DNA of 64,000 nt from Pedobacter segetis (GTDB taxonomy: Bacteria; Bacteroidota; Bacteroidia; Sphingobacteriales; Sphingobacteriaceae): positions 62,001-126,000 of the forward strand of contig NZ_JAEHFY010000004.1 in assembly GCF_016623585.1 (NCBI RefSeq), in the 5' to 3' direction. Made by a program: the position numbers and the translations under genes. This document shows, piece after piece, positions 39,241 through 64,000 of the stretch; within the stretch, counting starts at the first letter, position 1, and the number at the start of each line of letters is the position of its first letter. The notes beneath the pieces are model-generated. The model ran no database searches, was not told the DNA's origin, and saw only the letters and a program-made list of their open reading frames with translations.

Positions 39241-39373
39241 CCCATAATCCATTGTTGATAGTCCATTCTCTTGAGGCACTACTTTTAATGGTCAATAGTT
39301 TGAAAATGCTACCTATTAATGTTTACCATTTATTTACTGATAACCAATTACCGATTACAAATCCTAATCACTA
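39241..39373. repeat. Degenerate 7-bp word arrays between the FKBP and NrnA genes
   Basis: Consecutive heptads can be read as CCCATAA, TCCATTG, TTGATAG, TCCATTC (39241-39268), AATGGTC, AATAGTT, TGAAAAT (39287-39307) and GATAACC, AATTACC, GATTACA, AATCCTA, ATCACTA (39339-39373). They share the 7-base grammar of the arrays in the arginine operon but use different letters. They fill most of the spacer. Confidence 0.5.
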
Positions 39374-46472: not shown

Positions 46473-47132
46473 ATGCACATTAACGATTTTAATATTTTAG
46501 TTGCCAACATACAACACGTAGGATACGCAGAAACTATATGTGATGAAATGGCTGTTTCTGCAAAAGCCCGTGGTACGGGTATTGCCAAGCGCTCGCCAGA
46601 ATATATTGCAAACAAAATGTTAGAAGGTAAGGCGGTTATCGCTTTGCATAAAGACGACACTTGGGCAGGTTTCTGTTATATAGAAACCTGGAGCCATGGA
46701 GACTTTGTTGCTAATTCTGGTTTGATCGTAAACCCAATTTATAGAAAAGCTGGTTTGGCAAAGGCCATTAAAACTAAAATATTTGAGCTTTCACGTAAAA
46801 AATATCCCGAGGCAAAAATATTTGGTTTAACTACCGGTTTAGCAGTTATGAAAATAAATTCTGATTTAGGGTATGAACCGGTAACTTATTCAGAACTTAC
46901 ACAAGACGAAAATTTTTGGCAAGGTTGCAAAAGCTGTGTAAACTATGATATTTTGATGAGCAAAGGAAGGCAGAACTGTATGTGTACCGCTATGCTTTAT
47001 GATCCAGAAGAAAAAAGAGCTGAAGAAGAAGAACGCTTAAAAAACATCACACACAAAGCATCTTTGTTTGAAAGGATAGAGCAAAAATTAAAAAGCTTTA
47101 CAAAAATCGTAGCCATAAGTTTAACAAATTAA
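46473..47132 (+). CDS. GNAT acyltransferase at the head of the arginine operon, candidate glutamate N-acyltransferase
   Basis: The 219-residue protein has the GNAT acetyl-CoA region (SGLIVNPIYRKAGLAKAIKTK, about 86-107) and a cysteine-rich tail segment (GCKSCVNYDILMSKGRQNCMC). It stands first in the arginine operon, where argA would be expected, and no other ArgA or ArgJ is present in the window. I infer that it acylates glutamate, probably with succinyl-CoA given the downstream ArgF' type. The four clustered cysteines (about residues 150-170) might bind a metal. It is unrelated in length to the classical kinase-fused ArgA. Confidence 0.75.
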   Translation: MHINDFNILVANIQHVGYAETICDEMAVSAKARGTGIAKRSPEYIANKMLEGKAVIALHKDDTWAGFCYIETWSHGDFVANSGLIVNPIYRKAGLAKAIKTKIFELSRKKYPEAKIFGLTTGLAVMKINSDLGYEPVTYSELTQDENFWQGCKSCVNYDILMSKGRQNCMCTAMLYDPEEKRAEEEERLKNITHKASLFERIEQKLKSFTKIVAISLTN

Positions 47133-47134
47133 AA

Positions 47135-47197
47135 AAGTAGTGAGCATAGGGTAATGAGAATTGAGTCTCACTACCCTATACTCAAATCTCAATACTT
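47135..47197. repeat. Heptad word array, inverted, in the GNAT-argG spacer
   Basis: Left-half words are TAGTGAG, CATAGGG, TAATGAG, AATTGAG (47138-47165). The right half, CTCACTA and onward to 47197, gives similar words on the other strand (TATTGAG, ATTTGAG, TATAGGG, TAGTGAG). End to end, about 21 of 31 positions are complementary, so the spacer can fold into one long imperfect hairpin. Confidence 0.65.
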
Positions 47198-47202
47198 AAA
47201 AC

Positions 47203-48396
47203 ATGAAAAAGAAAGTTGTTTTAGCATTTAGTGGAGGTTTAGACACCTCGTTTTGTTGTATATATCTTAGCAAAGATTTGGATCTAGAAGTTCATTCTGT
47301 TATCGTAAATACAGGTGGGTTTTCTGATGAAGAACTAAAGCATATAGAAGAGCGGGCTTATAGTTTAGGCGTAAGCTCACACCATGCCGTTGATGCCGTT
47401 AAAGGATATTATGATGATTATTTGAAATATCTGGTTTTCGGGAATGTCTTAAAAAACAATACTTATCCACTTTCTGTAAGCGCAGAAAGAGTTACGCAGG
47501 CAACCGCGATTGCCAATTATGCTAAAGAAATTGATGCAGATTTTGTTGCCCACGGCAGTACCGGCGCAGGGAACGACCAAGTGCGTTTTGATATGATATT
47601 CAATATCTTGATCCCAAAAGTAGGTATCATTACGCCCATAAGGGATCTAAAATTGAGCCGTGATGCAGAAATTGAGTATTTGCACAAGCATAAAGTAGAA
47701 ATAAACGCAGAAAAAGCACAATATTCTATTAATAAAGGTATTTGGGGGACCTCTGTTGGTGGTAAAGAAACCTTATCATCTAAAGGGATGCTGCCAGAAG
47801 AAGCATGGCCAAGCCAAGTAACCAAAACTAATCCAGAAGATGTAGAGTTAGAATTTGTAAAAGGAGAATTAATTGCTGTTAACGGTAAAAAATTCGACCA
47901 TCCTTCTAAAGCGATACAAGCATTGCAAGAAATTGCGGCCCCATTTGGTATCGGAAGAGACATTCATGTTGGTGACACCATTATAGGTATCAAAGGAAGA
48001 GTTGGATTTGAAGCAGCAGCGCCGATGGTCATCATCAAAGCGCACCATGCTTTAGAGAAACACACGCTAACAAAATGGCAATTAAGTTGGAAAGATCAAT
48101 TATCCATGTTTTACGGAAACTGGATGCATGAAGGCCAGTTTCACGATCCAATTATGAGAGATATTGAAGCGTTTTTAACCAACACGCAAAAAACCGTAAA
48201 CGGTAAGGTATTTATTCAATTGCTTCCTTATCGTTTCTTGGTAATTGGCATCGAGTCTGAAAATGATCTGATGAATAGCAAATTTGGTAGCTACGGGGAA
48301 ATGAACGAAGGTTATACCGGAGAAGATGTAAAAGGATTTTCTAAAATTTTTGGAAATCAGGTTTCCATCTGGCATAAAGTGAATAAGGAGGGGTAA
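47203..48396 (+). CDS. argG: Argininosuccinate synthase
   Basis: The 397-residue cytoplasmic enzyme joins citrulline and aspartate using ATP. The N-terminal PP-loop is AFSGGLDTSFCC (about 7-18), followed by the AHGSTGAGNDQVRFD citrulline/aspartate-binding segment (about 113-127) and the conserved GRDIHVGDTIIGIKGR block in the C-terminal half. It is the second gene of the arginine operon. Word-repeat hairpins lie on both sides; the last one starts inside its stop region. Confidence 0.95.
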   Translation: MKKKVVLAFSGGLDTSFCCIYLSKDLDLEVHSVIVNTGGFSDEELKHIEERAYSLGVSSHHAVDAVKGYYDDYLKYLVFGNVLKNNTYPLSVSAERVTQATAIANYAKEIDADFVAHGSTGAGNDQVRFDMIFNILIPKVGIITPIRDLKLSRDAEIEYLHKHKVEINAEKAQYSINKGIWGTSVGGKETLSSKGMLPEEAWPSQVTKTNPEDVELEFVKGELIAVNGKKFDHPSKAIQALQEIAAPFGIGRDIHVGDTIIGIKGRVGFEAAAPMVIIKAHHALEKHTLTKWQLSWKDQLSMFYGNWMHEGQFHDPIMRDIEAFLTNTQKTVNGKVFIQLLPYRFLVIGIESENDLMNSKFGSYGEMNEGYTGEDVKGFSKIFGNQVSIWHKVNKEG

Positions 48397-48471
48397 GGTT
48401 GAAGGCCTAAGATTTAAGGTCTGTATGGCTTTTAAAACCTTACACCTTTTACCCTACATCTTAAACCCTAA
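48393..48471. repeat. Heptad word array, inverted, in the argG-argC spacer
   Basis: Left words: GTAAGGT, TGAAGGC, CTAAGAT, TTAAGGT (48393-48420). Right words: ACCTTAC, ACCTTTT, ACCCTAC, ATCTTAA, ACCCTAA (48437-48471), which are the same type on the other strand. The first word includes the TAA stop codon of argG. The whole spacer is this element. Confidence 0.75.
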
Positions 48472-48476
48472 TAAAA

Positions 48477-49541
48477 ATGAAAAAAATTAAAGTTGGAATT
48501 ATAGGAGGGGCAGGATATACTGGTGGCGAATTATTAAGGATTTTAATCAATCATCCAAATGTGGCGATTGCTTTTGTGCATAGCAACAGCAATGCTGGGA
48601 ATTTAATTTCTGATGTGCATACCGATTTATTGGGCGATACCGATTTGAAATTTACTGATCAGCTTTCACAAGATATTGATGTGCTTTTTCTTTGTGTTGG
48701 GCATGGCGATGCCCGGAAGTTTCTGGAAGCCAACCCAATTAATGATAACATAAAAATTATCGATTTATCTCAGGATTTTAGATTGAAAGCCAAAAGCCAA
48801 AAGCCTTTATCAAATGAAAAGCTGAAAGCAGAAAGCTTAAAGCAAACTAAAACACATGAAAGCCAGCCTTATGTCTTAAGCCCTGAGCCTTCCACCTTCA
48901 CCTATGGCTTGCCAGAATTAAATAGAGAGAAAATAAAATCTGCCCAAAACATTGCTAACCCGGGTTGTTTTGCAACTTGTATCCAGTTGGGTTTATTGCC
49001 AATGGCAAAAGCGGGTTTGCTAAAATCAGAAGTTCATATTTCTGCCACAACCGGATCTACGGGTGCAGGCCAAAAACCCGGGGCAACCACACATTTTAGT
49101 TGGAGAAACAATAACCTATCTGTCTATAAGGCTTTTGAACATCAGCACTTGAATGAAATCGGCGAAAGCATTACACAGCTACAGCCAAATTTTGAGGATA
49201 GCATTAACTTTATTCCCTATCGTGGTGCATTTCCCCGCGGTATTATCGCATCCGTTTATACCGATTGTGATTTAAGTTTAGCAGAAGTGGAGAAAATTTA
49301 TCAAGATTTTTATGCGGATGCACCGTTTACGCATATCAGCAAGCAAAATATCGATTTAAAACAAGTGGTAAACACCAATAAATGTCTGATCCATTTAGAG
49401 AAACACAGGAATAAACTATTGATTTTGTCCATAACGGATAATTTATTAAAAGGAGCATCGGGACAGGCAGTACAGAATATGAATTTGATGTTTGGATTAG
49501 AGGAGACGGCGGGTTTGAGGTTGAAAGCCTCTTTTTTTTAA
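48477..49541 (+). CDS. argC: N-acyl-gamma-glutamyl-phosphate reductase with an in-frame repeat insertion
   Basis: The 354-residue enzyme reduces the acyl-glutamyl phosphate to the semialdehyde. Motifs are GGAGYTGGELLR (NADPH loop, about 10-21), FLCVGHGDA, catalytic Cys164 in ANPGCFATC, and TGSTGAGQKPG. Bacteroidota ArgC proteins are usually about 320 residues. The excess is a polar insert at residues about 103-141, between the DLSQDFRL strand and the FTYGLPELNR motif, encoded exactly by a 117-bp heptad array. The insert precedes the catalytic domain loop and probably bulges from the surface. The frame is open through it, so the enzyme is likely functional. Confidence 0.93.
   Translation: MKKIKVGIIGGAGYTGGELLRILINHPNVAIAFVHSNSNAGNLISDVHTDLLGDTDLKFTDQLSQDIDVLFLCVGHGDARKFLEANPINDNIKIIDLSQDFRLKAKSQKPLSNEKLKAESLKQTKTHESQPYVLSPEPSTFTYGLPELNREKIKSAQNIANPGCFATCIQLGLLPMAKAGLLKSEVHISATTGSTGAGQKPGATTHFSWRNNNLSVYKAFEHQHLNEIGESITQLQPNFEDSINFIPYRGAFPRGIIASVYTDCDLSLAEVEKIYQDFYADAPFTHISKQNIDLKQVVNTNKCLIHLEKHRNKLLILSITDNLLKGASGQAVQNMNLMFGLEETAGLRLKASFF
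48784..48900 (+). repeat. 117-bp heptad word array inside argC
   Basis: Words TGAAAGC, CAAAAGC, CAAAAGC (48784-48804), TGAAAGC, AGAAAGC, TTAAAGC (48823-48843) and TGAAAGC (48857-48863) are followed by the inverted type GCCTTAT, GTCTTAA, GCCCTGA, GCCTTCC, ACCTTCA (48866-48900). The length of 117 bases is 39 codons, so the reading frame of argC is kept. Confidence 0.8.
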
Positions 49542-49970
49542 GCTTAAAGCCCAAGGCAAAAAGCATAAAGCAACGATACGGAATAACATGAGGGATTTTA
49601 AAAAATATGAAGTTTGGCAATTAGCACACGAGAATGTCCTTTTCGTTTATAAAACCATATTACCTAAAATACCACCTTCAGAAAAATATGATTTAACTAG
49701 CCGGATAAAAAGAGCAGCTTATTCTATTCCATTAAATATTGCAGAAGGAGCAGGTAGAAACACAGATAAAGATTTTGCAAGTTTTTTAGATAATGCTTTA
49801 GGTTCTGCTCAGGAAGTAGAATATGCATTATTACTTATTAAAGAATTAGAATTTATAGATGAAGATGTTTACACTTTATCAAATGGCAAAATCAACATTA
49901 TCAAATCAAAATTAATTAATTTAATAAAATCAATAAGAAAGCCTTAAGCCTTTTGCTTTCGGCTTTACGC
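49542..49970. mobile_element. 429-bp candidate mini-element: four-helix-bundle gene between 30-bp inverted repeats
   Basis: The left end (49542-49571) and the reverse complement of the right end (49941-49970) match at 24 of 30 positions. Both are built of 7-bp words: TTAAAGC, CCAAGGC, AAAAAGC, ATAAAGC on the left and GTAAAGC, CGAAAGC, AAAAGGC, TTAAGGC on the right (complement). The only content is one gene, whose stop codon lies inside the right repeat. It interrupts the argC-argD junction. Mobility is inferred from the terminal repeats and position. Confidence 0.55.
49588..49947 (+). CDS. Four-helix-bundle protein (23S rRNA intervening-sequence protein / bAvd-like family)
   Basis: The 119-residue protein matches the TIGR02436-type family: MRDFKKYEVWQLAHENVLFVYK, then LTSRIKRAAYSIPLNIAEGAGRNTDKDFASFLDNALGSAQEVEYALLL. 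The conserved SIPLNIAEG motif is central. Relatives are encoded in intervening sequences of 23S rRNA genes or serve as the nucleic-acid-binding accessory protein Avd of diversity-generating retroelements. Neither an rRNA gene nor a reverse transcriptase is present here. It is a foreign gene in the arginine operon, bounded by inverted word arrays. A role in RNA or DNA binding is inferred from relatives. Confidence 0.9.
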   Translation: MRDFKKYEVWQLAHENVLFVYKTILPKIPPSEKYDLTSRIKRAAYSIPLNIAEGAGRNTDKDFASFLDNALGSAQEVEYALLLIKELEFIDEDVYTLSNGKINIIKSKLINLIKSIRKP

Positions 49971-49978
49971 TAATAAAC

Positions 49979-51106
49979 ATGAAGATTTTCGACGTATATC
50001 CAATCAACAATATCAACATCGTTAAAGGCGAGGGTAGTTTGGTTTGGGATGATAAGGGACAAGAATATTTAGATCTATATGGTGGCCATGCCGTGATTTC
50101 TATCGGGCATACGCATCCTCATTATGTAAAACGTTTAGAAGATCAGTTGCATAAAATAGGGTTTTATTCTAACTCGATAGAAATTCCATTGCAGGTAGAA
50201 TTGGCCGAAAAATTGGGTAAAGTTTCTGGAAAAGAGGATTATCAACTATTTCTTTGCAACTCTGGAGCTGAAGCAAACGAAAATGCGCTAAAATTGGCTT
50301 CGTTTGCCAATGGGAGAAGGAAAATTATCGCTTTCAGTAAGTCTTTCCACGGGCGTACTTCGCTGGCCGTTTCTGTAACAGATAATCCAAAGATTATTGC
50401 TCCGGTAAACGAAAATTCTAACGTAATTTTTCTTCCATTTAACGATGTTGCATCCTTAAAAGCAACTTTTGAAGACGAAGGCGAAGAAATCTGTGCTGTA
50501 ATTATTGAAGGAATACAAGGTGTTGGCGGGATTAGAGTGGCAAGTGATGAGTTTTTACAAACCATCCGTTCTCTATGTGATGAATATGGAGCATATTTCA
50601 TTGCGGATTCCATCCAATGCGGTTACGGCAGAAGCGGTAAATTCTATTCTCATGATTTTGCTGGTGTAGAAGCAGATATTTACCCAATGGCGAAGGGTAT
50701 TGGCAATGGTTTCCCTATTGGAGCAATCAGTATCAGCCCTAAGCTAAAACCTTGGCATGGTATGTTGGGGACTACTTTTGGTGGGAATCATTTAGCCTGT
50801 GCGGCAGCGTTGGCTGTTCTAGAAGTGATGGAAGAAGGAAATTTGATGGAGAATGCTGAGAAAGTTGGTAATTACCTAATTACCGAATTGAAGAAATTTG
50901 ATAAAGTAAAAGAAGTAAGAGGCAGGGGCTTAATGATTGGTATAGATTTACCAGAAGATATGGCTCATGTAAGAAAGGACCTTCTTTTTAAAGAGCATAT
51001 TTTCACTGGGACTTCCAGTCCAAATGTAATTCGTTTGTTGCCAGCATTAAATTTAACCATGGCTCATGCTGATAGGTTTTTGGAGAGTTTCTCCAAACTA
51101 ATTTAA
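49979..51106 (+). CDS. argD: N-acylornithine aminotransferase
   Basis: The 375-residue class III PLP aminotransferase converts the acyl-glutamate semialdehyde to N-acylornithine. Key regions are LYGGHAVISIGHTHP (about 33-47), NSGAEANENALKLA (about 94-107), SFHGRTSLA (about 122-130), Asp210 in ADSIQCGYGRSGKF and the Schiff-base Lys239 in YPMAKGIGNGFPIGA. The DSIQCG form replaces the more usual DEVQTG. The succinyl or acetyl preference cannot be read directly. It is followed by accessory genes that split it from argF'. Confidence 0.94.
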   Translation: MKIFDVYPINNINIVKGEGSLVWDDKGQEYLDLYGGHAVISIGHTHPHYVKRLEDQLHKIGFYSNSIEIPLQVELAEKLGKVSGKEDYQLFLCNSGAEANENALKLASFANGRRKIIAFSKSFHGRTSLAVSVTDNPKIIAPVNENSNVIFLPFNDVASLKATFEDEGEEICAVIIEGIQGVGGIRVASDEFLQTIRSLCDEYGAYFIADSIQCGYGRSGKFYSHDFAGVEADIYPMAKGIGNGFPIGAISISPKLKPWHGMLGTTFGGNHLACAAALAVLEVMEEGNLMENAEKVGNYLITELKKFDKVKEVRGRGLMIGIDLPEDMAHVRKDLLFKEHIFTGTSSPNVIRLLPALNLTMAHADRFLESFSKLI

Positions 51107-51128
51107 AAGCATTTAATTATATTTGTGT

Positions 51129-51338
51129 ATGATAGTTAAATATTTAATCGATGAAAGTGGCAATAAAACCGCAGTTCAAATAAGCTTAGAAGACTATCAT
51201 TCACTTTTAGAAAGCGCAAATATTTTGCCTTAACACGTGGTTGATGGAATTAAAAAAGGTCAAGAAGAAGGCCGGCTTGGCTTGACAAAATCTACTGATG
51301 AAGTGATGATGAAGTATAATTCATGGAATTTTTATTAG
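51129..51338 (+). pseudogene. Antitoxin-like small gene with an internal stop
   Basis: The frame reads MIVKYLIDESGNKTAVQISL then EDYHSLLESANILP, stops at TAA (51231-51233), and continues in the same frame HVVDGIKKGQEEGRLGLTKS then TDEVMMKYNSWNFY to a stop at 51338. The start resembles short antitoxin-like proteins that begin with a strand-turn-strand and an EDYxxLLE helix. The open continuation in the same frame after the stop argues for a single nonsense mutation. No toxin gene adjoins it. Confidence 0.6.
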
Positions 51339-51379
51339 TTTTAGATTATCTTTACATTTTTAAAGTTTTGAATTAAAAA

Positions 51380-52156
51380 ATGCTTGTTCCAATATCCTCA
51401 AATCATTCTATTAGTAGAGTAATTGCTAATTTCATTTTGGCACAGAGTTTTGTTAAGCCAAAATTCATATACGATAAACTTATAACAAATGATGAATTAA
51501 CTAGTTATCAAAAAAAGGGATTAACATCTGCAAAAACTATAAACATACAGAACAATTCATTAAATATTTCGCCTGATTCTGTTAATGGGTTTCTTTTTGA
51601 GGAATTTGATGAAGTGGGAAAAAGTTTAAATGTTCTTAAAATTGAGAACACCAATAATAATAAAGCTGTTATAACTTTTGAAAATAAAAAATACCCTAAC
51701 TGGACTAATTATAGAAATAGATTTATCTCAGATATAATTGCACTATCTAAAACCTTTGATGTGTATATAGAGGCTATTGGCTTGACTTATGTTGATGAAT
51801 TTGTTTGGAAATCAACTAACAAAATTGATGTTAATTCAGTTTTTAATGAAAGTTCAGACTTAATAAATAAAAAATTTTTAAGTTCTTATAATGGAACTCT
51901 AATTTCGGTTTCTCAATCTGAAAGCGTTGATGAATTCAATTTTCTTGAGGAAAAGACAGAAATAATTTTTAATAACGAGTTAAAAAGAATTATTGTTAAT
52001 CATACTTATGCGTTGAAGCTTAGGGAAATTGCCATTCTTTCAAAAGAAAATTCAAAAGATTTTGAAGAATATTTTAACAGAGCACATAAAGCAAACAAAG
52101 ATATTTTAAGCGATATTTTCACTAATGAAGTCAAAGACCTAATAAAATTAAAGTAA
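51380..52156 (+). CDS. TIGR04255-family protein, first gene of an AT-rich three-gene cassette
   Basis: The 258-residue cytoplasmic protein resembles the TIGR04255 family. It has an N-terminal VIANFILAQSF block, a middle VITFENKKYPNWTNYRNRFISDI, the conserved IEAIGLTYVDEFVW strand pattern (family pattern R-x-G-L-R-Y-x-N) and a C-terminal helix with EEYFNRAHKANKDILSDIFTNEV. The family is sporadic and has no established function; members are found in variable genomic regions. The gene is much more AT-rich than the arginine genes and is packed tightly with the two genes that follow (6 and 2 bases). Confidence 0.65.
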   Translation: MLVPISSNHSISRVIANFILAQSFVKPKFIYDKLITNDELTSYQKKGLTSAKTINIQNNSLNISPDSVNGFLFEEFDEVGKSLNVLKIENTNNNKAVITFENKKYPNWTNYRNRFISDIIALSKTFDVYIEAIGLTYVDEFVWKSTNKIDVNSVFNESSDLINKKFLSSYNGTLISVSQSESVDEFNFLEEKTEIIFNNELKRIIVNHTYALKLREIAILSKENSKDFEEYFNRAHKANKDILSDIFTNEVKDLIKLK

Positions 52157-52162
52157 TTTTTT

Positions 52163-52690
52163 ATGTTAGAAACTATTATGGCAACTTCTATGCTAATGTC
52201 TTTATCAACAGATTATAGGAAAAACAGCTACTTAGCAAATATTATCTCAAATAAAAGCGATACAATTGAGGAAGTACACCTTGAGCCTTTAAACAATTAT
52301 TTTGCTGATTTTATCAGTATCGGTAATTTCAACAAAGTTGAAAAAAAGTTTTTTCAATTACTAAATCTAAATGAAATTAGTTCCGAAGTTTATAATAATT
52401 CATATAGTCTTTTAACAGAGTTTCCAGAGTTTATTTTAGAGGAAATAGATGTTGAAAATATATACACTTCGAAATATGGGACTTTATTATTGGATTTTGA
52501 ATACGATAACAAAAACATATTCTCTCTAGAAATTGGAAAAGATAGCATTGGTTATTTTAGTGAAATAAATTCTAAGACAGATGTATTTTGCGAAAGCTTA
52601 AAAACTATTGACAATCAAGGAAATACTATCAACGCAAAACAAATCAGTTCAGAAATTGAAAACTTTTTAAGTAAGCTAAATCTTGTTTAG
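52163..52690 (+). CDS. Unknown protein, second gene of the cassette
   Basis: The 175-residue protein has no signal or membrane segment. An N-terminal helical half (about 1-85) precedes a beta-rich part with YTSKYGTLLLDFEYDNKNIFSLEIGKDSIGYFSEIN (about 106-140) and a C-terminal helix. I do not recognise the family. The strand pattern and the position between TIGR04255 and the third gene suggest that the three are a unit. The start six bases after the preceding stop implies translational coupling. Confidence 0.7.
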   Translation: MLETIMATSMLMSLSTDYRKNSYLANIISNKSDTIEEVHLEPLNNYFADFISIGNFNKVEKKFFQLLNLNEISSEVYNNSYSLLTEFPEFILEEIDVENIYTSKYGTLLLDFEYDNKNIFSLEIGKDSIGYFSEINSKTDVFCESLKTIDNQGNTINAKQISSEIENFLSKLNLV

Positions 52691-52692
52691 AA

Positions 52693-53256
52693 TTGGATGC
52701 TTCTATTTTACACATACCAGAAAATATTGCTGATAGTGAAATACTAGTAAGATTTATCTTTGATTCAGATTTTAAAAACAAAAAAATTGAAATTACCAAA
52801 GTCATTGAAGGAGGAATATTCTTAGATACTCGTGATTTAGGAGTTTCTTTACAACGTCACTTATTTTGCAACGAGCAACAATGTAAAAAAATTGCATGTA
52901 ACATTCAAAATAAAAATTATGTCGGCTTTGTAATATTTAAAAAAGAAGATTTCCAAAAAACAAAAGAAGAACATAAAAAAGAAAGAGAAGAATTTGAAGC
53001 AGTAATATTATTTACTCCTCTAGACGAAGGAAATAATATTATAGAAGATAAAACTAATATCTATACTAACACTCCTAAAAATCCTAGTCATTCTGATTTG
53101 TTTTACATAAATCCAGCGGTTACTAACGATGAAACTCCTAAAACTGCAATTAGACAATTTTCTAGAAAATTGGTTAAGACATCAAATATTATAATTGATT
53201 ATCCCTCAGAAGACTTCTCTTATAACTTAAATAGTTTTTCAAGCTATTATGATTAA
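52693..53256 (+). CDS. Unknown protein, third gene of the cassette
   Basis: The 187-residue protein starts at a TTG codon two bases after the previous stop; there is no early in-frame ATG. It contains a compact N-terminal half with GGIFLDTRDLGVSLQRHLFCNEQQCKK, a charged coiled-coil-like KKEDFQKTKEEHKKEREEFE (about 77-96) and a C-terminal segment with NPSHSDLFYINPAVTNDETPKTAIRQFSRKLV. HSDLFY and the IRQFSRKL helix look like conserved functional blocks, but I do not know the family. It has no membrane segment. Confidence 0.68.
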   Translation: MDASILHIPENIADSEILVRFIFDSDFKNKKIEITKVIEGGIFLDTRDLGVSLQRHLFCNEQQCKKIACNIQNKNYVGFVIFKKEDFQKTKEEHKKEREEFEAVILFTPLDEGNNIIEDKTNIYTNTPKNPSHSDLFYINPAVTNDETPKTAIRQFSRKLVKTSNIIIDYPSEDFSYNLNSFSSYYD

Positions 53257-53261
53257 AACTA

Positions 53262-53282
53262 ACCTTTTACCTTTAACCTCCA
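53262..53282. repeat. Half heptad array before argF'
   Basis: Three words, ACCTTTT, ACCTTTA and ACCTCCA, follow each other directly and end five bases before the argF' ATG. They are of the same type as the right half of the argG-argC spacer. Confidence 0.5.
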
Positions 53283-53287
53283 TAAAA

Positions 53288-54235
53288 ATGAATCTATTCG
53301 CCTCCGTTCATGACGTTACTGACATCCACCAACTGGTTTCATCAGCAATTTCACTAAAGAAAAAACCTTACTTGGATGAACAATTAGGCAAGCATAAAAC
53401 CTTAGGTTTAATTTTTTTGAACCCGAGTTTACGAACTCGTTTAAGCACTCAAAAAGCTGCCTTAAATTTAGGGATGCAGGTAATGGTGATGAACTTGGAT
53501 AAAGAAGGCTGGGCTTTAGAAACACAGGATGGCGTGGTGATGAACGGCACTACCGTAGAACACATTCGTGAAGCAGCCGGCGTAATGGGCGAGTATTGTG
53601 ATATCATTGGTTTTAGATCTTTCCCAAGTTTGGTTGATAGGGAAGATGATTATGCCGAAACGATATTCAACAAATTTGTAAAATTCTGCGGTGTGCCGGT
53701 GGTGAGTTTAGAATCGGCTACACGCCATCCGTTACAAAGTTTGGCAGATTTAATCACGATAGAAGAATTAAAGAAAACAGCAAAACCCAAAGTGGTTTTA
53801 ACCTGGGCGCCCCATGTAAAACCATTGCCGCAAGCCGTGGCCAATTCCTTTGCAGAGTGGATGAACAAAACCGACTATGATTTTGTGATTACCCATCCCA
53901 AAGGTTATGATTTATCTCCCGAGTTTGCAGGAAAAGCAAAGTTTACAAATAAGCAAGACGAAGCTTTGGCTAACGCCGATTTTGTTTATGTTAAAAATTG
54001 GTCGTCTTATAACGATTATGGGAAGATTTTGACAGATGGCGAAGGTTGGATGATGACCAACGAAAAACTGAAGCTTACCAATAATGCCGGTGTAATGCAT
54101 TGCTTGCCCGTAAGAAGAGGTTTAGAACTTTCCCATGAAATTTTGGATGGGCCAAATTCATTGGTTTTAAATCAGGCTAATAATAGGGTTTGGGCAGCAC
54201 AAGCGGTACTAAAAAACATACTTTTGTCATGCTGA
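53288..54235 (+). CDS. argF': N-succinylornithine-type carbamoyltransferase ArgF'
   Basis: The start at 53288 (MNLFASVHDVTD) gives 315 residues. It carries the carbamoyl-phosphate loop FLNPSLRTRLST (about 43-54, STRT-like), the HPLQSLADL motif and the HCLPVRRGLE motif. It belongs to the N-acylornithine carbamoyltransferases, not to OTCase. The residue that sets the acyl specificity, Glu92 in Xanthomonas N-acetylornithine and Pro90 in Bacteroides N-succinylornithine enzymes, is Val90 here (VMNGTTVEH), which predicts N-succinylornithine. The last codons (LLSC, stop) are provided by a dispersed repeat that begins at 54223. Confidence 0.93.
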   Translation: MNLFASVHDVTDIHQLVSSAISLKKKPYLDEQLGKHKTLGLIFLNPSLRTRLSTQKAALNLGMQVMVMNLDKEGWALETQDGVVMNGTTVEHIREAAGVMGEYCDIIGFRSFPSLVDREDDYAETIFNKFVKFCGVPVVSLESATRHPLQSLADLITIEELKKTAKPKVVLTWAPHVKPLPQAVANSFAEWMNKTDYDFVITHPKGYDLSPEFAGKAKFTNKQDEALANADFVYVKNWSSYNDYGKILTDGEGWMMTNEKLKLTNNAGVMHCLPVRRGLELSHEILDGPNSLVLNQANNRVWAAQAVLKNILLSC

Positions 54236-54309
54236 ATTTATTTCAGCATCTTATCATAATGAATATTAAACCTTGCATATGAGATTCCGAAATGAATTGG
54301 GAATGGCAC
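54223..54309. repeat. Dispersed TGTCATGCTGAA repeat, forming the argF'-argB spacer
   Basis: The element starts TTTGTCATGCTGAATTTATT, contains CAGCATCTTATCA and GAGATTCCGAAATGAATT, and ends GGGAATGGCAC. The inverted arms (TTTGTCATGCTGAA / TTTCAGCATC and GATTCCGAA / TTGGGAATGGC) make two small hairpins. It supplies the argF' stop codon and ends 13 bases before argB. Related copies are at 37994-38100 and 61334-61430. Confidence 0.8.
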
Positions 54310-54322
54310 ATAAATTTTATAA

Positions 54323-55147
54323 ATGAAAAAACTCACAGTTATAAAAATTGGAGGTAACGTAATTGATAATTCAGAGAAACTGCATGAGTTTTTAAAGGCT
54401 TTCGCCGATTTAAAGGGAAACAAAATCTTGGTTCATGGCGGTGGTAAAATGGCGACTAAATTGGCCGCTGAGATGCACATAGAAGCCAAAATGATAGATG
54501 GACGCAGGATTACCGATATTGAAACATTACGCATTGTTACGATGGTTTATGCAGGATCGATCAGTAAAAACCTAGTGGCGCAATTACAAATGTTTGGTTG
54601 CAACGCCTTGGGTTTATGCGGTGCAGATGGTAACCTGATAAAAGCCAAAAAACGCCCCATCCAAAAAATAAAATCTAAAACTGATCATGCTTTTCGAGAA
54701 ATTGATTTTGGTTATGTTGGTGATTTGGACGGAAATTCTATCGAAACGGATAATTTAGTTAAACTGATCGATAACGGTTTTGTTCCGGTTTTTTCGGCGA
54801 TCACACACGATGGAGAAAGTCAGCTTTTAAACACCAATGCAGATACGATCGCATCGGCTTTGGCGGTTGGGATGGCGCAGCATTATGAAACTTCTTTGGT
54901 TTATTGTTTCGAGAAAAAAGGGGTTTTGATGGATGTGGACGATGAAAATTCTGTGATTAGAGAAATTAACCCGATTAAATACGAAGATTTAAAAGCCAAA
55001 GGAATTGTTGCTGACGGAATGTTGCCTAAATTGCACAATGCTTTTGAAGCGATAAATAAAGGGGTAAAGCAAGTTTATATCGGCAAAGCCGAGGATTTGA
55101 GTGAGTTAGAAAGAGCAAATGTTTTTGGAACGAGGCTGGTAATTTAA
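54323..55147 (+). CDS. argB: N-acylglutamate kinase
   Basis: The 274-residue amino-acid-kinase-fold enzyme phosphorylates the gamma carboxylate of N-acylglutamate. It has KIGGNVID (about 7-14), LVHGGGKMATKLA (about 36-48), DGRRITD, NALGLCGADGNL and the C-terminal GMLPKLHNAFEAI block. The form is typical for Bacteroidota; arginine feedback inhibition is often associated with an N-terminal extension, which is absent here. It sits 13 bases after a repeat element in the arginine operon. Confidence 0.93.
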   Translation: MKKLTVIKIGGNVIDNSEKLHEFLKAFADLKGNKILVHGGGKMATKLAAEMHIEAKMIDGRRITDIETLRIVTMVYAGSISKNLVAQLQMFGCNALGLCGADGNLIKAKKRPIQKIKSKTDHAFREIDFGYVGDLDGNSIETDNLVKLIDNGFVPVFSAITHDGESQLLNTNADTIASALAVGMAQHYETSLVYCFEKKGVLMDVDDENSVIREINPIKYEDLKAKGIVADGMLPKLHNAFEAINKGVKQVYIGKAEDLSELERANVFGTRLVI

Positions 55148-55187
55148 GTAAGGGCATATAAACTTTATTGGCAAAAGGAAGATGAGT

Positions 55188-55266
55188 TTGCGTTAAGGAT
55201 AGTAGTGGATACCGGCCTTGTGGCTAAGGCCTGTGCAGTATGAACGGATAGCCTGCCCGAACGCCC
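55188..55266 (+). repeat. Dispersed GCGTTA...GAACGCCC element, copy 2
   Basis: It starts TTGCGTTAAGGATAGTAG, has the stem GGCCTTGTGGCTAAGGCC and ends GGATAGCCTGCCCGAACGCCC across the last 21 bases. It is the plus-strand version of copy 1 and sits in the argB-proC spacer. Confidence 0.7.
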
Positions 55267-55333
55267 AAATATTAATGATTTTAAAATTTGATAGGTTTAA
55301 CCACCTAACAAACCATCATACAAACTTTAAGAA

Positions 55334-56137
55334 ATGAAAATAACCATCATAGGAAGCGGAAACATAGGTTTATCATTGGCAAATGGATTGGTAAAAAGCC
55401 AACTTTGCGCTGCCAGGGAAATCACGTTAACCAGGAGAACTTTAGCAGGATTAACCGACTTTGCCAAACAGGGTTTTAAAACTTCTGATAATAATGCAGC
55501 AGCGGTAAAAGATGCTGATATTATTGTTTTGGCGGTTTTACCGCAACAGGTTAACAAAGTTTTAGATGAAATAAGATCTTCCATTAACCCTGATAAGCAG
55601 ATATTCACTTCGGTAGTTTCTGGTGTTACTTGTAAAAACATTAAGGAAAAACTGTATGATAATTTGCAGGTGGTGAGGGTAATGCCAAACACTTCCATTG
55701 CAATCCAACAATCAATGACTTGTTTTGCTACCGATAACGCATCGGCAGAGAGCTTAAAAATAGTAAAAGAGATTTTTGATACCGTTGGGATGACCATCCA
55801 GATTAACGAGGAACTAATGACCTCGGCAACTGCGCTGTGTGCCTGCGGAATCGCTTTCTTCTTACGCTCTATCAGGGCGGCTTCGCAAGGCGGCGTGGAA
55901 GTGGGCTTTCATGCAAAGGATGCCTTAATGATGGCGGCACAAACTGCAAAAGGGGCTGCTGATCTGTTATTGCAACTGGCATCTCACCCTGAAAAGGAAA
56001 TAGACAAGGTAACCTCGCCAAAAGGATGCACCATTGCAGGGTTGAACGAAATGGAGCACAATGGTTTTAGTTCTGCCATGATCAAAGGTATTAAAACATC
56101 CGCTAAAATTGCAGGGGAACTATACACAAAGGAGTAA
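55334..56137 (+). CDS. proC: Pyrroline-5-carboxylate reductase
   Basis: The 267-residue enzyme reduces pyrroline-5-carboxylate to proline with NAD(P)H. It has the N-terminal Rossmann motif IIGSGNIGLSLANGL (about 4-18) and the conserved RVMPNTSIAIQQSMTCF (about 115-131). The C-terminal dimer region contains TSPKGCTIAGLNEMEHNGF (TSPGGTT in most homologues). Its place inside the arginine operon links proline and arginine supply, an order seen in other Bacteroidota. The start is the only reasonable ATG. Confidence 0.93.
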   Translation: MKITIIGSGNIGLSLANGLVKSQLCAAREITLTRRTLAGLTDFAKQGFKTSDNNAAAVKDADIIVLAVLPQQVNKVLDEIRSSINPDKQIFTSVVSGVTCKNIKEKLYDNLQVVRVMPNTSIAIQQSMTCFATDNASAESLKIVKEIFDTVGMTIQINEELMTSATALCACGIAFFLRSIRAASQGGVEVGFHAKDALMMAAQTAKGAADLLLQLASHPEKEIDKVTSPKGCTIAGLNEMEHNGFSSAMIKGIKTSAKIAGELYTKE

Positions 56138-56155
56138 GTGGATTTGAGTATTTAG

Positions 56156-56183
56156 GCACAAGAACCAAGATTAAAGAATAAAG
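56156..56183. repeat. Half heptad array immediately before argE
   Basis: The words GCACAAG, AACCAAG, ATTAAAG and AATAAAG follow one another without gaps and end at the base before the argE ATG. Confidence 0.55.
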
Positions 56184-57251
56184 ATGCAAGAGATTGAAAA
56201 ACTATATAAAAACGCAGTTTCGCTTTTAAAAAAACTGATTGCCACGCCTTCTTTTAGTAAGGAAGAGCAAGATACGTTTGCCATTTTATCTGATTTCTTT
56301 ACTAAAAGCGGAGTTGATTTTGATACCAAAGGTTTTAATATTTGGGCTTACAACAAGCATTTTGATGCTAAAAAACCAACTGTTCTTTTAAACTCCCATC
56401 ACGATACCGTTAAACCCAACAAAAGTTATTCTCGCGATCCCTTTTCTCCGGATGTAGAAGATGGGAAGTTATTTGGCTTGGGAAGTAATGATGCTGGGGG
56501 CTGTTTGGTTTCTCTAATTTCAACATTTTTGTATTTCTACGATAAAAAAAACTTAAAATATAACATTGCCATTGCCACCACTGCTGAGGAAGAAAACTCT
56601 GGTAAAGGAGGCTTGGAATCCATCATCCCCGATTTGGGGAAACTAGATTTTGCAATTATTGGCGAACCCACTTTAATGGACCTGGCCATTGCCGAAAAAG
56701 GTTTGTTGGTGTTGGATTGTTATGCAAAAGGAAAATCTGGCCATGCCGCAAGGGAAGAGGGGGAAAATGCGATCTACAAAGCGTTAAAAGATTTAGAGTG
56801 GTTTCAAAACTATCAATTTACCAAAGCTTCTGATACTTTGGGACCAATAAAGATGACGGTAACCATCATTAACGCAGGTAGCTTGCATAATGTGGTACCA
56901 GATCAATGCACTTTTACGGTAGATGTTAGGGTAACGGATGCTTACAGTAATGAAGATGTGCTCAAGATCATCCGGTCTTTTGTGAGTTGCGAAGTGGTTC
57001 CCCGTTCTATCCGGTTAAAACCCTCATCCATCCCGTCAGCACACCCAATTGTGCAAGCAGGCATTGCCTTGGGCAAAAAAACCTATGGTTCGCCAACCAC
57101 TTCCGATCAGTCGCTATTAGATATTCCATCTTTAAAATGTGGCCCCGGAGATTCGGCGAGATCACATACCGCCGATGAATTTGTTTACTTAAAAGAGATT
57201 GAGGAAGGCATTGAAGGCTACATAAAAATGCTGGAAAAAGTGGTTTTTTAA
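56184..57251 (+). CDS. argE: M20-family N-acylcitrulline/N-acylornithine deacylase
   Basis: The 355-residue dinuclear zinc peptidase-family enzyme has LNSHHDTVKPN (about 71-81), GLGSNDAGGCL (metal Asp, about 98-108) and ATTAEEENSGKGG with the catalytic Glu-Glu pair (about 131-143). It also has the small dimerisation domain from about 175 to 285. In this pathway, where ArgF' uses N-succinylornithine, the substrate is expected to be N-succinylcitrulline, as in Bacteroides. It is the last arginine gene in the window; argH is absent. Confidence 0.9.
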   Translation: MQEIEKLYKNAVSLLKKLIATPSFSKEEQDTFAILSDFFTKSGVDFDTKGFNIWAYNKHFDAKKPTVLLNSHHDTVKPNKSYSRDPFSPDVEDGKLFGLGSNDAGGCLVSLISTFLYFYDKKNLKYNIAIATTAEEENSGKGGLESIIPDLGKLDFAIIGEPTLMDLAIAEKGLLVLDCYAKGKSGHAAREEGENAIYKALKDLEWFQNYQFTKASDTLGPIKMTVTIINAGSLHNVVPDQCTFTVDVRVTDAYSNEDVLKIIRSFVSCEVVPRSIRLKPSSIPSAHPIVQAGIALGKKTYGSPTTSDQSLLDIPSLKCGPGDSARSHTADEFVYLKEIEEGIEGYIKMLEKVVF

Positions 57252-61931: not shown

Positions 61932-62480
61932 TTAAGACAATTCATTCATTTTTGCACTTTTTTTAATCCACCAATATATCCCAATTAAAATCAACAGATA
62001 GCAAAACACATTGAATAAAGTATGATGGTCTATCTGCATTTTTCTGGCATAATGGGCATAATAGGATACTACGAAGAGCCTTAAAATATTTAGTAGCGTA
62101 AAACCGATGATGCTAAAAACCAAGAACAGCACACGATCTTTTACTTTTTGATTGGGTACGGCTAAAGATAAAGCCATTAAAATGCTGATAATCCCATAAC
62201 CTAAACAGCTATAAACTATTTTGATGCCCCCATGCCCAATAATTCTTAAAGAGGTATCATTGGTTAAATATCTCAAACCAAAAATATCACAAATTACCGT
62301 AGAACCACCGATTAAAAAATGTCGATAAGCCCTTATAAAGTCAAGATGTTCATTGGCAAATTGCCAATATAAACCCCCTTGTGCGCATAAACCTATCCAA
62401 AATCTAAAGAAGTAACTAAAAAAGAAATAACCTAAAACCAATATCAAGAAGAACCTAATTTGTACTTTATTTATTTTCAT
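61932..62480 (-). CDS. Exosortase-family transpeptidase, XrtY-like
   Basis: This 182-residue integral membrane protein has about five helices and the exosortase triad: Cys92 in VYSCLGYGI, Arg134 in LLNILRLFV and His152/His153 in DHHTLFNV. Exosortases cleave and reattach proteins that carry a PEP-CTERM-like tail, often in organisms with exopolysaccharide clusters. The small size and Bacteroidota setting resemble the XrtX/XrtY groups, which sit with dedicated glycosyltransferases, as here. It overlaps the GT2 gene by 14 bases. No protein with a recognisable sorting tail is seen in the window. Confidence 0.8.
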   Translation of the reverse strand: MKINKVQIRFFLILVLGYFFFSYFFRFWIGLCAQGGLYWQFANEHLDFIRAYRHFLIGGSTVICDIFGLRYLTNDTSLRIIGHGGIKIVYSCLGYGIISILMALSLAVPNQKVKDRVLFLVFSIIGFTLLNILRLFVVSYYAHYARKMQIDHHTLFNVFCYLLILIGIYWWIKKSAKMNELS

Positions 62481-63496: not shown

Positions 63497-64000
63497 TTAC
63501 ACAAATTTCTTATCCAACACTTCATGATACATTTCCAAATATCTCTCCCTCAACTTATCCTCAGCGAAATCTTGTTTGATCGTATTTGTTAGTTTTTCAG
63601 GATTAAAATTTCTTGCCTTTTTTGCTTCATTAGCATTTTCTAATATTTCTATCATACCATCAAAAGAGCGTTCGCAAACCAAACCCAAATGATTTAAAGC
63701 AACATAATCACTTAAGCCCACATTCTTAGTAATCAACACGGGAGTACCAACAAAAAGACTCTCTATCACCACGTTCGCAAAATTCTCATCGTATGACGGA
63801 AGGATCAAATAATCATGTTGGGCCATCAAACCAAACTTTTCATTGCCATAAACAGCACCCATCCAATTTATTTTATCATCAATCTTTAAGCTTTTTGCCT
63901 TTTGCCTTAAGCTTTCTGCATATGAAAGTTCCCCATTCCCAACAACAGATAGTTTCCAGTTAAAGTTATGCGTGGCCAAAGCCTCAAAAAGTAATTCTAA
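63497..64000 (-). CDS. GT4-family glycosyltransferase (5' part outside window)
   Basis: The frame is open to the right edge (residues ELLFEALATHNFNWKLSVVGNG continue from beyond it), so only the C-terminal domain of about 167 residues is seen. It contains KINWMGAVYGNEKFGLMAQHDYLILPSYDENFANVVIESLFVGTPVLIT, whose E-x7-E motif (ENFANVVIE) is the GT4 donor site. It reads in the same direction as the GT2 and exosortase genes, after a 172-base spacer. Donor and acceptor are unknown. Confidence 0.88.
   Translation of the reverse strand, partial: LELLFEALATHNFNWKLSVVGNGELSYAESLRQKAKSLKIDDKINWMGAVYGNEKFGLMAQHDYLILPSYDENFANVVIESLFVGTPVLITKNVGLSDYVALNHLGLVCERSFDGMIEILENANEAKKARNFNPEKLTNTIKQDFAEDKLRERYLEMYHEVLDKKFV

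Follow-up and report, generated by a model that had tools for sequence, protein, structure and literature searches.

Seven-base word arrays among the arginine genes of a Pedobacter genome and their association with the PF05635 (23S-rRNA-IVP) protein family

Introduction

Several spacers among the arginine genes of Pedobacter segetis are filled with back-to-back seven-base words (heptads), usually in two inverted halves, and the question raised by this locus is what process generates and keeps them. The DNA analysed is a stretch of 64,000 nucleotides (positions 62,001 to 126,000 of contig NZ_JAEHFY010000004.1; hereafter the window), part of the contig handled here as C44 in a genome of 3.84 Mb. 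The heptad arrays probably belong to a widespread, REPIN/RAYT-like element built around a gene of family PF05635 (23S-rRNA-IVP; hereafter IVP), either as its ends or as relatives of it that lack the gene; one copy of that gene lies between argC and argD inside a pair of such arrays. Genomes and loci are referred to by G and L numbers where they have to be told apart.

Periodicity of the arrays

The eight regions noted in an initial annotation of the window were scored for lags of 4 to 12 where scorable, with 2000 dinucleotide shuffles each. Lag 7 ranked first in all eight, and the observed value was reached by 0, 1, 0, 10, 0, 1, 1 and 0 of the 2000 shuffles; the back-to-back heptads described by the annotation are therefore real. 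Half-arrays scored singly were matched by at most 22 of 2000 shuffles in five of six cases, while the half at 47138-47161 was not significant alone (398 of 2000 shuffles reach its value). The arrays of the window are as follows.

47138..47196, plus strand: two-armed array of the TGAGTAT/GAGATTT class, upstream of argG
48394..48471, plus strand: gene-less two-armed AAGGT array in the argG-argC spacer
48784..48901, plus strand: gene-less two-armed AAAGC array, in frame within argC
49539..49571, plus strand: IVP element, left arm made of NNAAAGC/NNAAGGC heptads, beginning at the argC stop codon
49941..49970, plus strand: right arm of the IVP element, GCTTTNN/GCCTTNN (the inverted word), beginning within the last codons of the IVP gene
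53258..53282, plus strand: one-armed ACCTTTT array, close to where the carbamoyltransferase open reading frame (ORF) starts; this ORF has its first ATG at 53249 and another ATG 3' of the array
56156..56192, plus strand: one-armed array of the AAGAATC/AAAGAATA class, overrunning the start of the ORF at 56184-57251
39241..39373, no strand: looser lag-7 set (lag-7 match 0.44, reached by 0 of 2000 shuffles)

Another AAAGC-class array was seen at 63883-63915, within a predicted minus-strand ORF (63497-63979). The array at 48784-48900, which the annotation had counted among the spacers, lies in frame inside argC. Its description of arrays that are alike in grammar, not in sequence, and tied to a seven-base register also stands.

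The genome was sampled as the window plus twenty 20-kb stretches (464 kb in total), and runs of at least four units with a 5-mer core and at most one mismatch between neighbours were counted in intergenic DNA. Lag 7 gave 22 runs, a signal whose absence the annotation had named as a refutation; lags 5-6 and 8-13 gave at most five each, the harmonic lag 14 gave 13 and lag 15 gave six. As lag-7 runs occur across the sample, the arrays are not restricted to the arginine operon, and a special link with arginine genes is not supported.

The protein encoded inside the arrays

The gene between the two arms (49588-49947, plus strand) encodes a protein of 119 amino acids of family PF05635/TIGR02436, which matches the Pfam model 23S-rRNA-IVP with E 8e-30 (103.6 bits against a curated cut-off of 33.8) and the corresponding NCBIfam model with E 4.6e-28. 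The family owes its name to 23S rRNA intervening sequences that carry an IVP gene, whereas the gene here lies in the argC-argD gap between protein-coding genes and not inside a 23S rRNA gene. Its AlphaFold2 model, a monomer, is a four-helix bundle (predicted local distance difference test score, pLDDT, 97). The closest structure found by Foldseek is 2gsc (Xcc0516), with a template modelling (TM) score of 0.94, followed by 2rld and then by Avd of diversity-generating retroelements (DGRs), to which the fold is the same; Avd (4dwl, TM 0.79) and the DGR complexes reach TM 0.75-0.80 with probabilities of 0.99-1.00, but with E-values above 0.07. The depositions of 2gsc and 2rld each hold five chains, and the title of the Xcc0516 structure paper reportedly refers to five four-helix bundles. 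We know of no function of the 23S-rRNA-IVP family outside Avd. One or two internal stop codons were observed in 12 IVP genes (G002, G005, G008, G012, G013, G015, G016, G017), which suggests frequent decay.

Among the origins offered by the initial annotation, a protein that selects for seven-base spacing fits best, and the protein is likely the PF05635 product encoded inside the arrays it had noted at 49542-49571 and 49941-49970.

Association of arrays with IVP genes

In the genus of the window, 18 genomes (that of the window and 17 relatives) hold 89 IVP loci, to which 91 PF05635 rows were reduced, two pairs being fragments of single genes. The best lag between 5 and 12 was 7 upstream of 53 and downstream of 62 of these 89 loci. 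At least four lag-7 units were present at 44/89 loci and in 58/178 flanks of 130 bp each, compared with 11/546 intergenic blocks of the own-genome sample (Fisher p 3e-28). At the 30 of 89 loci with strong enough arms, the left word resembles the inverted right word with a similarity of 0.73, against 0.35 between different IVPs, and the inverted match beats the direct one in 24 of the 30. The inverted halves and the single word per array that the annotation had described are seen by eye here as well, and statistically around IVP genes.

A broad set was obtained by scanning GTDB representatives with a Xanthomonas IVP, and the results given for it refer to the best 80 of 581 confirmed stretches. 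Their sources include Pseudomonadota, Bacteroidota, Planctomycetota, Acidobacteriota, Nitrospirota and Clostridia, and also Gemmatimonadota, Chloroflexota, a cyanobacterium, candidate phyla and Methanophagales archaea. Lag-7 arrays with four or more units occur in 51/80 loci and 78/160 flanks, lag-8 arrays in 12 loci and lag-9 arrays in four; any of lags 6-9 is found in 65/80. Intergenic control blocks showed lags 6, 7, 8 and 9 in 3, 17, 3 and 1 of 317, and far blocks showed lag 7 in 5/150; for lag 7, the difference between flanks and intergenic blocks (17/317) has a Fisher p of 5e-28. When the genus and broad sets are taken together, 57/70 left arms are purine-rich and 55/76 right arms pyrimidine-rich. 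Judged by sequence, IVP genes in many phyla lie within matching inverted arrays, and the Xanthomonas IVPs L140 and L141 sit within GGGAATC/GATTCCC-like ones.

Periods other than 7 were also seen at IVP loci, namely 8 at L039, L054 and L044 (e.g. GGTTAGAT), 6 at L009 and L069, and 9 at L159 and L177; the array period may be a property of the IVP protein lineage. At L010, the flank of G000:C70:71122-71436 holds a TCGGT-word array of about 14 units (by eye) that adjoins the IVP gene. Elsewhere in the genome of the window, L134 (15744-15847) shows ACCTNNA words over about 100 bp.

Array abundance in the Xanthomonas family

The relation between IVP genes and gene-less arrays was followed in 99 genomes of the family of the Xanthomonas genome G018, of which 44 hold PF05635; in 14 control genomes, which include E. 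coli, the family had no match. The 57 rows gave 54 fetched loci plus L140; a second fragment in G048, a weak row in G073 and the row of G018 itself, which is L140, were omitted. GGGANTN arrays were counted as genome-wide matches to GGGANTNGGGANTNGGGA, an IVP was assigned the GGGA word if its flanks held a GGGA pair seven bases apart, and genomes with a count of at least 50 were termed array-rich. This threshold, the four-unit minimum and the similarity cut-offs were set by us.

Genomes with a GGGA word at the IVP flanks have a median of 289 GGGANTN matches (range 0-652, n=29), those with IVPs of other words a median of 16 (0-329, n=15) and those without IVP a median of 0 (0-125, n=55). The Mann-Whitney p-values are 3e-4 for GGGA versus other words, 1e-11 for GGGA versus no IVP and 3e-4 for other words versus no IVP. 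An IVP is present in 31/34 array-rich genomes and in 13/65 others (p=6e-12). Seven genomes with GTGA words at their IVP had been listed before the result of the GTGA count was known; all seven have 31-644 GTGA matches, and among the other 92 genomes five reach at least 20 (G058, G065, G068, G093, G122), an association with a Fisher p of 5e-8 over the 99 genomes and of 3e-6 within the IVP-bearing ones. At a site that we take to be accB-accC, from its translated neighbours, an IVP occurs in 26 genomes with the word GGGA in 19 and GTGA in seven, cases that are not independent because word changes on the protein tree are few. The genome-wide GTGA/GGGA ratio separates these two word groups without overlap (Spearman 0.69). 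By these counts, gene-less arrays in the Xanthomonas family are abundant mainly together with an IVP of the same word and mostly absent without an IVP, and array word and IVP word change together.

Conservation within the words

Four sets of orthologous arrays, from two to four species each and picked where alignable without gaps, were compared by column. Core columns vary in 3/87 cases and the two free positions (NN) in 21/30, and in the left arm at 49539..49571 the core is kept and NN varied in G008, G016 and G017. The more alike two IVPs are, the more alike are their words, and this holds also for loci that share no neighbours (r=0.38, reached in 0/1000 permutations; 79 of 223 loci accepted, a single unshared-neighbour pair reaching 65% identity).

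Cassette exchange in the genus

The argC-argD junction was compared in 13 genomes, nine of which have an IVP between the two genes; none is present there in G003, G004, G006 and G014. The argC-argD IVPs fall into two classes, one 84-100% identical to that of the window and accompanied by AAAGC arrays, the other 42-49% identical with AAGTT-type arrays, the relatives concerned carrying AAGTT/AGGTT words. G005 and G008 hold cassettes of different class that are 0.47-0.72 identical by window, while identity is 0.87-1.00 in ten 60-base windows of the argC side and 0.97-1.00 in the seven that come first on the argD side. Similarly, an IVP cassette in G001 stands against an unrelated 140-bp repeat element at the same site in G004, with flanking windows 0.80-1.00 identical. 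These alignments indicate that whole IVP cassettes come and go at argC-argD, by transposition or recombination. A repeat element of 140-224 bp with ends CCTCACCC...CTCTCC and the inverse was observed in the argC-argD spacer of L030, L031 and L033 (G003, G006 and G004), where other genomes have an IVP or nothing, and looks like a separate miniature element.

Gene-less arrays differ among relatives as well. The in-frame site within argC measures 36 bp in G001, G003, G004, G006, G012, G013 and G014, consisting of AAATCGG-like heptads in G001, G003, G004 and G014 (by eye), and 78 to 117 bp of heptads with AAAGC/AAAGT words in G000, G002, G005, G007, G008, G009 and G016; its lengths in relatives of the same genus are 36, 78, 84 or 87 bp. 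The array at 48394..48471 is found by eye also in G002 and G006, and eight other genomes have just 8-13 bp between the matched ends of argG and argC. In L020 (G016) and L030 (G003) this spacer holds about 100 bp that are similar in both, start with ACCCCCTA and are unrelated to the heptads, by their look another repeat family. The array upstream of argG (47138..47196) shares its word class with the IVP locus L008 of the same genome (by eye). Most examined spacers vary in presence or sequence within the genus, in a comparison that the initial annotation had proposed. Four genomes carry an AAAGC IVP at argC-argD, and their median of AARGC matches is 44, against 15 in the other 14 (p=0.015).

Proposed mechanism

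The element has a small number of heptads on one side, of a word mostly rich in purines, then the IVP gene or just a short loop, and on the other side a small number of heptads with the word inverted; the word has about five fixed and two free bases. The word is not the same in all IVP lineages, and it usually has seven bases and in some lineages six, eight or nine. IVPs are related to Avd and have pentameric crystal forms; such a protein may recognise its own word in a seven-nucleotide register, in DNA or RNA, and may promote the copying, spread or lengthening of arrays both in trans and at its own ends, with its gene riding between two of its arrays. The chemistry could possibly be supplied by replication or repair enzymes of the host, with no tyrosine transposase. 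A match of one heptad to each subunit of a pentamer is only an idea: the minimum window of the pairing test described below has some influence on the arm lengths measured there (5.3 and 4.6 units), and PMC4692102, in the portion available, gives four units for most repeats.

RAYT genes are flanked by repetitive extragenic palindromic sequences (REPs), palindromes with a GTAG or CGTC tag. As described in excerpts of PMC3116915, the REPIN-RAYT system resembles that of the IVP in three ways: its gene is associated with repeat copies in inverted orientation, extragenic DNA holds many inverted doublets that lack the gene, and the repeat type tracks a specific gene. The heptad arrays share with it the inverted doublets, some of them gene-less; repeat abundance follows the cognate gene in the Xanthomonas family, with exceptions, and weakly in the window's own genus. 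The systems differ in that a Y1 transposase acts there, and PF05635 with arrays of a seven-base word is found here.

A number of observations weigh against the proposal. By eye, the array upstream of argG is found at the same position in most genomes compared, unlike the variable spacers noted above, and none of the six IVPs of the window's genome has a word that matches the AAGGT of 48394-48471. AARGC matches still occur in 11/14 genomes of the genus without an AAAGC IVP at argC-argD, and a trans effect in this genus is weak. At the strict threshold, 15/80 loci of the broad set have no array. In the Xanthomonas family, 6/29 genomes with a GGGA IVP have fewer than 20 GGGA matches and the count reaches 20 or more in 6/55 genomes without IVP, no IVP is detectable in three of the array-rich genomes (G029, G065, G122), and a lax search for IVP remnants in seven IVP-free, array-bearing exceptions found none, its two sub-threshold matches not being IVP-like when read. 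The genome counts are not independent because the genomes are related; the word change at the presumed accB-accC site amounts to three events on the protein tree drawn, and possibly to a single one; and very similar IVPs nearly all share a site. Y1_Tnp is slightly commoner in array-rich genomes (27/34 vs 38/65, p=0.046; 65/99 overall). The NN of opposite arms match no better than shuffled ones (0.567 vs 0.547, p=0.16, in 55 loci passing filters of 224 considered). This mismatch rules out a fully paired hairpin as the selected feature; what is kept is therefore the word and its seven-base register rather than full pairing. No target-site duplication was found by eye at argC-argD or argG-argC, where the elements lie directly against stop and start codons, so that a clean one is not definable. 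Finally, no case of transposition was observed, nor is a catalytic residue of IVP known.

Alternative explanations

As the main rival reading, the arrays could be mRNA or DNA binding sites of an IVP regulator, comparable to TRAP or CsrA sites, generated by slippage and then retained through selection, with the IVP regulating itself through its own flanks. This seems rather unlikely, although it would suit the conserved cores with free NN, the position of the arginine-gene arrays against start or stop codons and the fold shared with Avd, which is part of the DGR reverse transcriptase complex. In the consulted parts of PMC4692102, transcription is described for most of the Xac repeats, and fewer repeats than expected lie between divergent ORFs, yet no role in gene regulation could be identified and the neighbouring genes are spread over functional classes. 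The presence of arrays differs among close relatives, whole cassettes differ between near-identical flanks, one array is in frame within argC, and inverted arrays on both sides of a gene would exceed what autoregulation apparently needs, all of which weighs against the regulatory reading.

It is quite improbable that the IVP acts in trans with a reverse transcriptase, as Avd does in DGRs, and that arrays are copied through RNA. The fold relation to Avd and the DGR ribonucleoprotein would agree with such copying, as would the weak match (E 3e-7) of the L008 IVP to the Avd model of NCBIfam, which does not reach the cut-off of that model. RVT_1, however, is not enriched, being present in just 8/34 array-rich genomes against 10/65 others (p=0.41; 18/99 overall), a comparison that reverse transcriptases too divergent for RVT_1 would escape; as far as these 99 genomes go, this is a difference from DGRs and does not support the reverse transcriptase that the initial annotation had listed as a source, at least of the RVT_1 kind. 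Y1_Tnp is absent from 7/34 array-rich genomes, and six array-rich genomes, five of them with an IVP, have neither RVT_1 nor Y1_Tnp, for which reason both were dropped as obligatory partners.

Neutral slippage, in which seven-base repeats would follow from polymerase geometry (Mrazek 2007, as cited in the sections seen of PMC4692102 and PMC4679880) with an incidental IVP link, agrees with the overrepresentation of heptamers in several published genomes, as far as those accounts go, and with long, regular arrays such as the TCGGT one beside L010, but is disfavoured to the point of being very improbable by the enrichment of arrays around IVP genes in the genus and broad sets, the tie of the word to IVP identity and presence, the periods of 8 or 9 at some IVP loci and the conservation of core and not NN, where simple slippage repeats would be alike over the whole unit, so that plain slippage, also among the origins first considered, is not supported as the sole origin.

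Relation to published repeats

The consulted portion of PMC4692102 describes GGGANTN heptamers of Xanthomonas, of which two genomes have 186 and 183 arrays, mostly between genes, with 70 and 75 convergent pairs; it also covers heptameric intergenic repeats of Nostoc. The paper takes the heptamers for G-quadruplex repeats and says of their functional role that it "still remains to be elucidated". The Xanthomonas arrays have seven-base units with variable positions, as the IVP arrays do, Xanthomonas IVP genes were found inside such arrays here, and the two appear to be the same thing. In the passages seen of PMC4679880, TAACTGA direct repeats of Beggiatoaceae, cyanobacteria and Bacteroidetes are regarded as possible binding sites of a post-transcriptional regulator; a word of the same type, by eye, flanks the IVPs L045 and L068 in the window's genus. 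The main text of PMC4692102 does not contain S23, four helix, four-helix or intervening, nor does that of PMC4679880 contain S23, four helix or 23S. In the open-access texts as searched, the accession PF05635 occurs in one paper, on DGRs (PMC10053308), which in the part seen describes PF05635 and Avd as alike, and PMC11637426 contains "intervening sequence protein". No link between PF05635 and heptamer arrays was found in this search of the open-access literature, with closed journals and preprints outside it, and on that search the link appears new in print.

Gene order around the arrays

The arrays lie within a series of genes in the following order.

Upstream of argG: GNAT-like ORF, first of the series (Pfam match)
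47203-48396: argG (Pfam match)
48477-49541: argC (Pfam match), followed by the IVP gene (Pfam match)
49979-51106: argD (named from sequence and gene order only)
51380-53256: three ORFs between argD and the carbamoyltransferase, interrupting the arginine gene order
53249-54235: carbamoyltransferase (Pfam match)
After the carbamoyltransferase: argB-like gene (named from sequence and gene order only)
After the argB-like gene: proC-like gene (Pfam match)
56184-57251: last ORF (named from sequence and gene order only)

Two of the three interrupting ORFs were scanned (51380-52156 and 52163-52690) and have no Pfam match. Rfam gave no match at gathering score in 46500-56500, and a known RNA family was accordingly set aside for this region.

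Implications

On a wider view, which we hold more tentatively, IVPs may constitute a new class of pentamer-forming, array-propagating proteins that are not transposases. Each IVP lineage would read its own short word at a fixed step and, with host enzymes, would have multiplied inverted arrays of that word through bacterial and some archaeal genomes. The Avd of DGRs and the rRNA intervening sequences would then be derived or special cases, and the heptamers of Xanthomonas, perhaps also those of Beggiatoa and cyanobacteria, would be products of such proteins. Propagation and regulation both predict word-specific binding by the IVP; the appearance of new arrays is predicted by propagation alone. 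Two orphans, the heptameric intergenic repeats and the 23S-rRNA-IVP family, are joined here as one testable system in many phyla. If the proposal is true, this would be a second partnership of the REPIN/RAYT type between a repeat and a protein, in this case with a protein that has no transposase fold.

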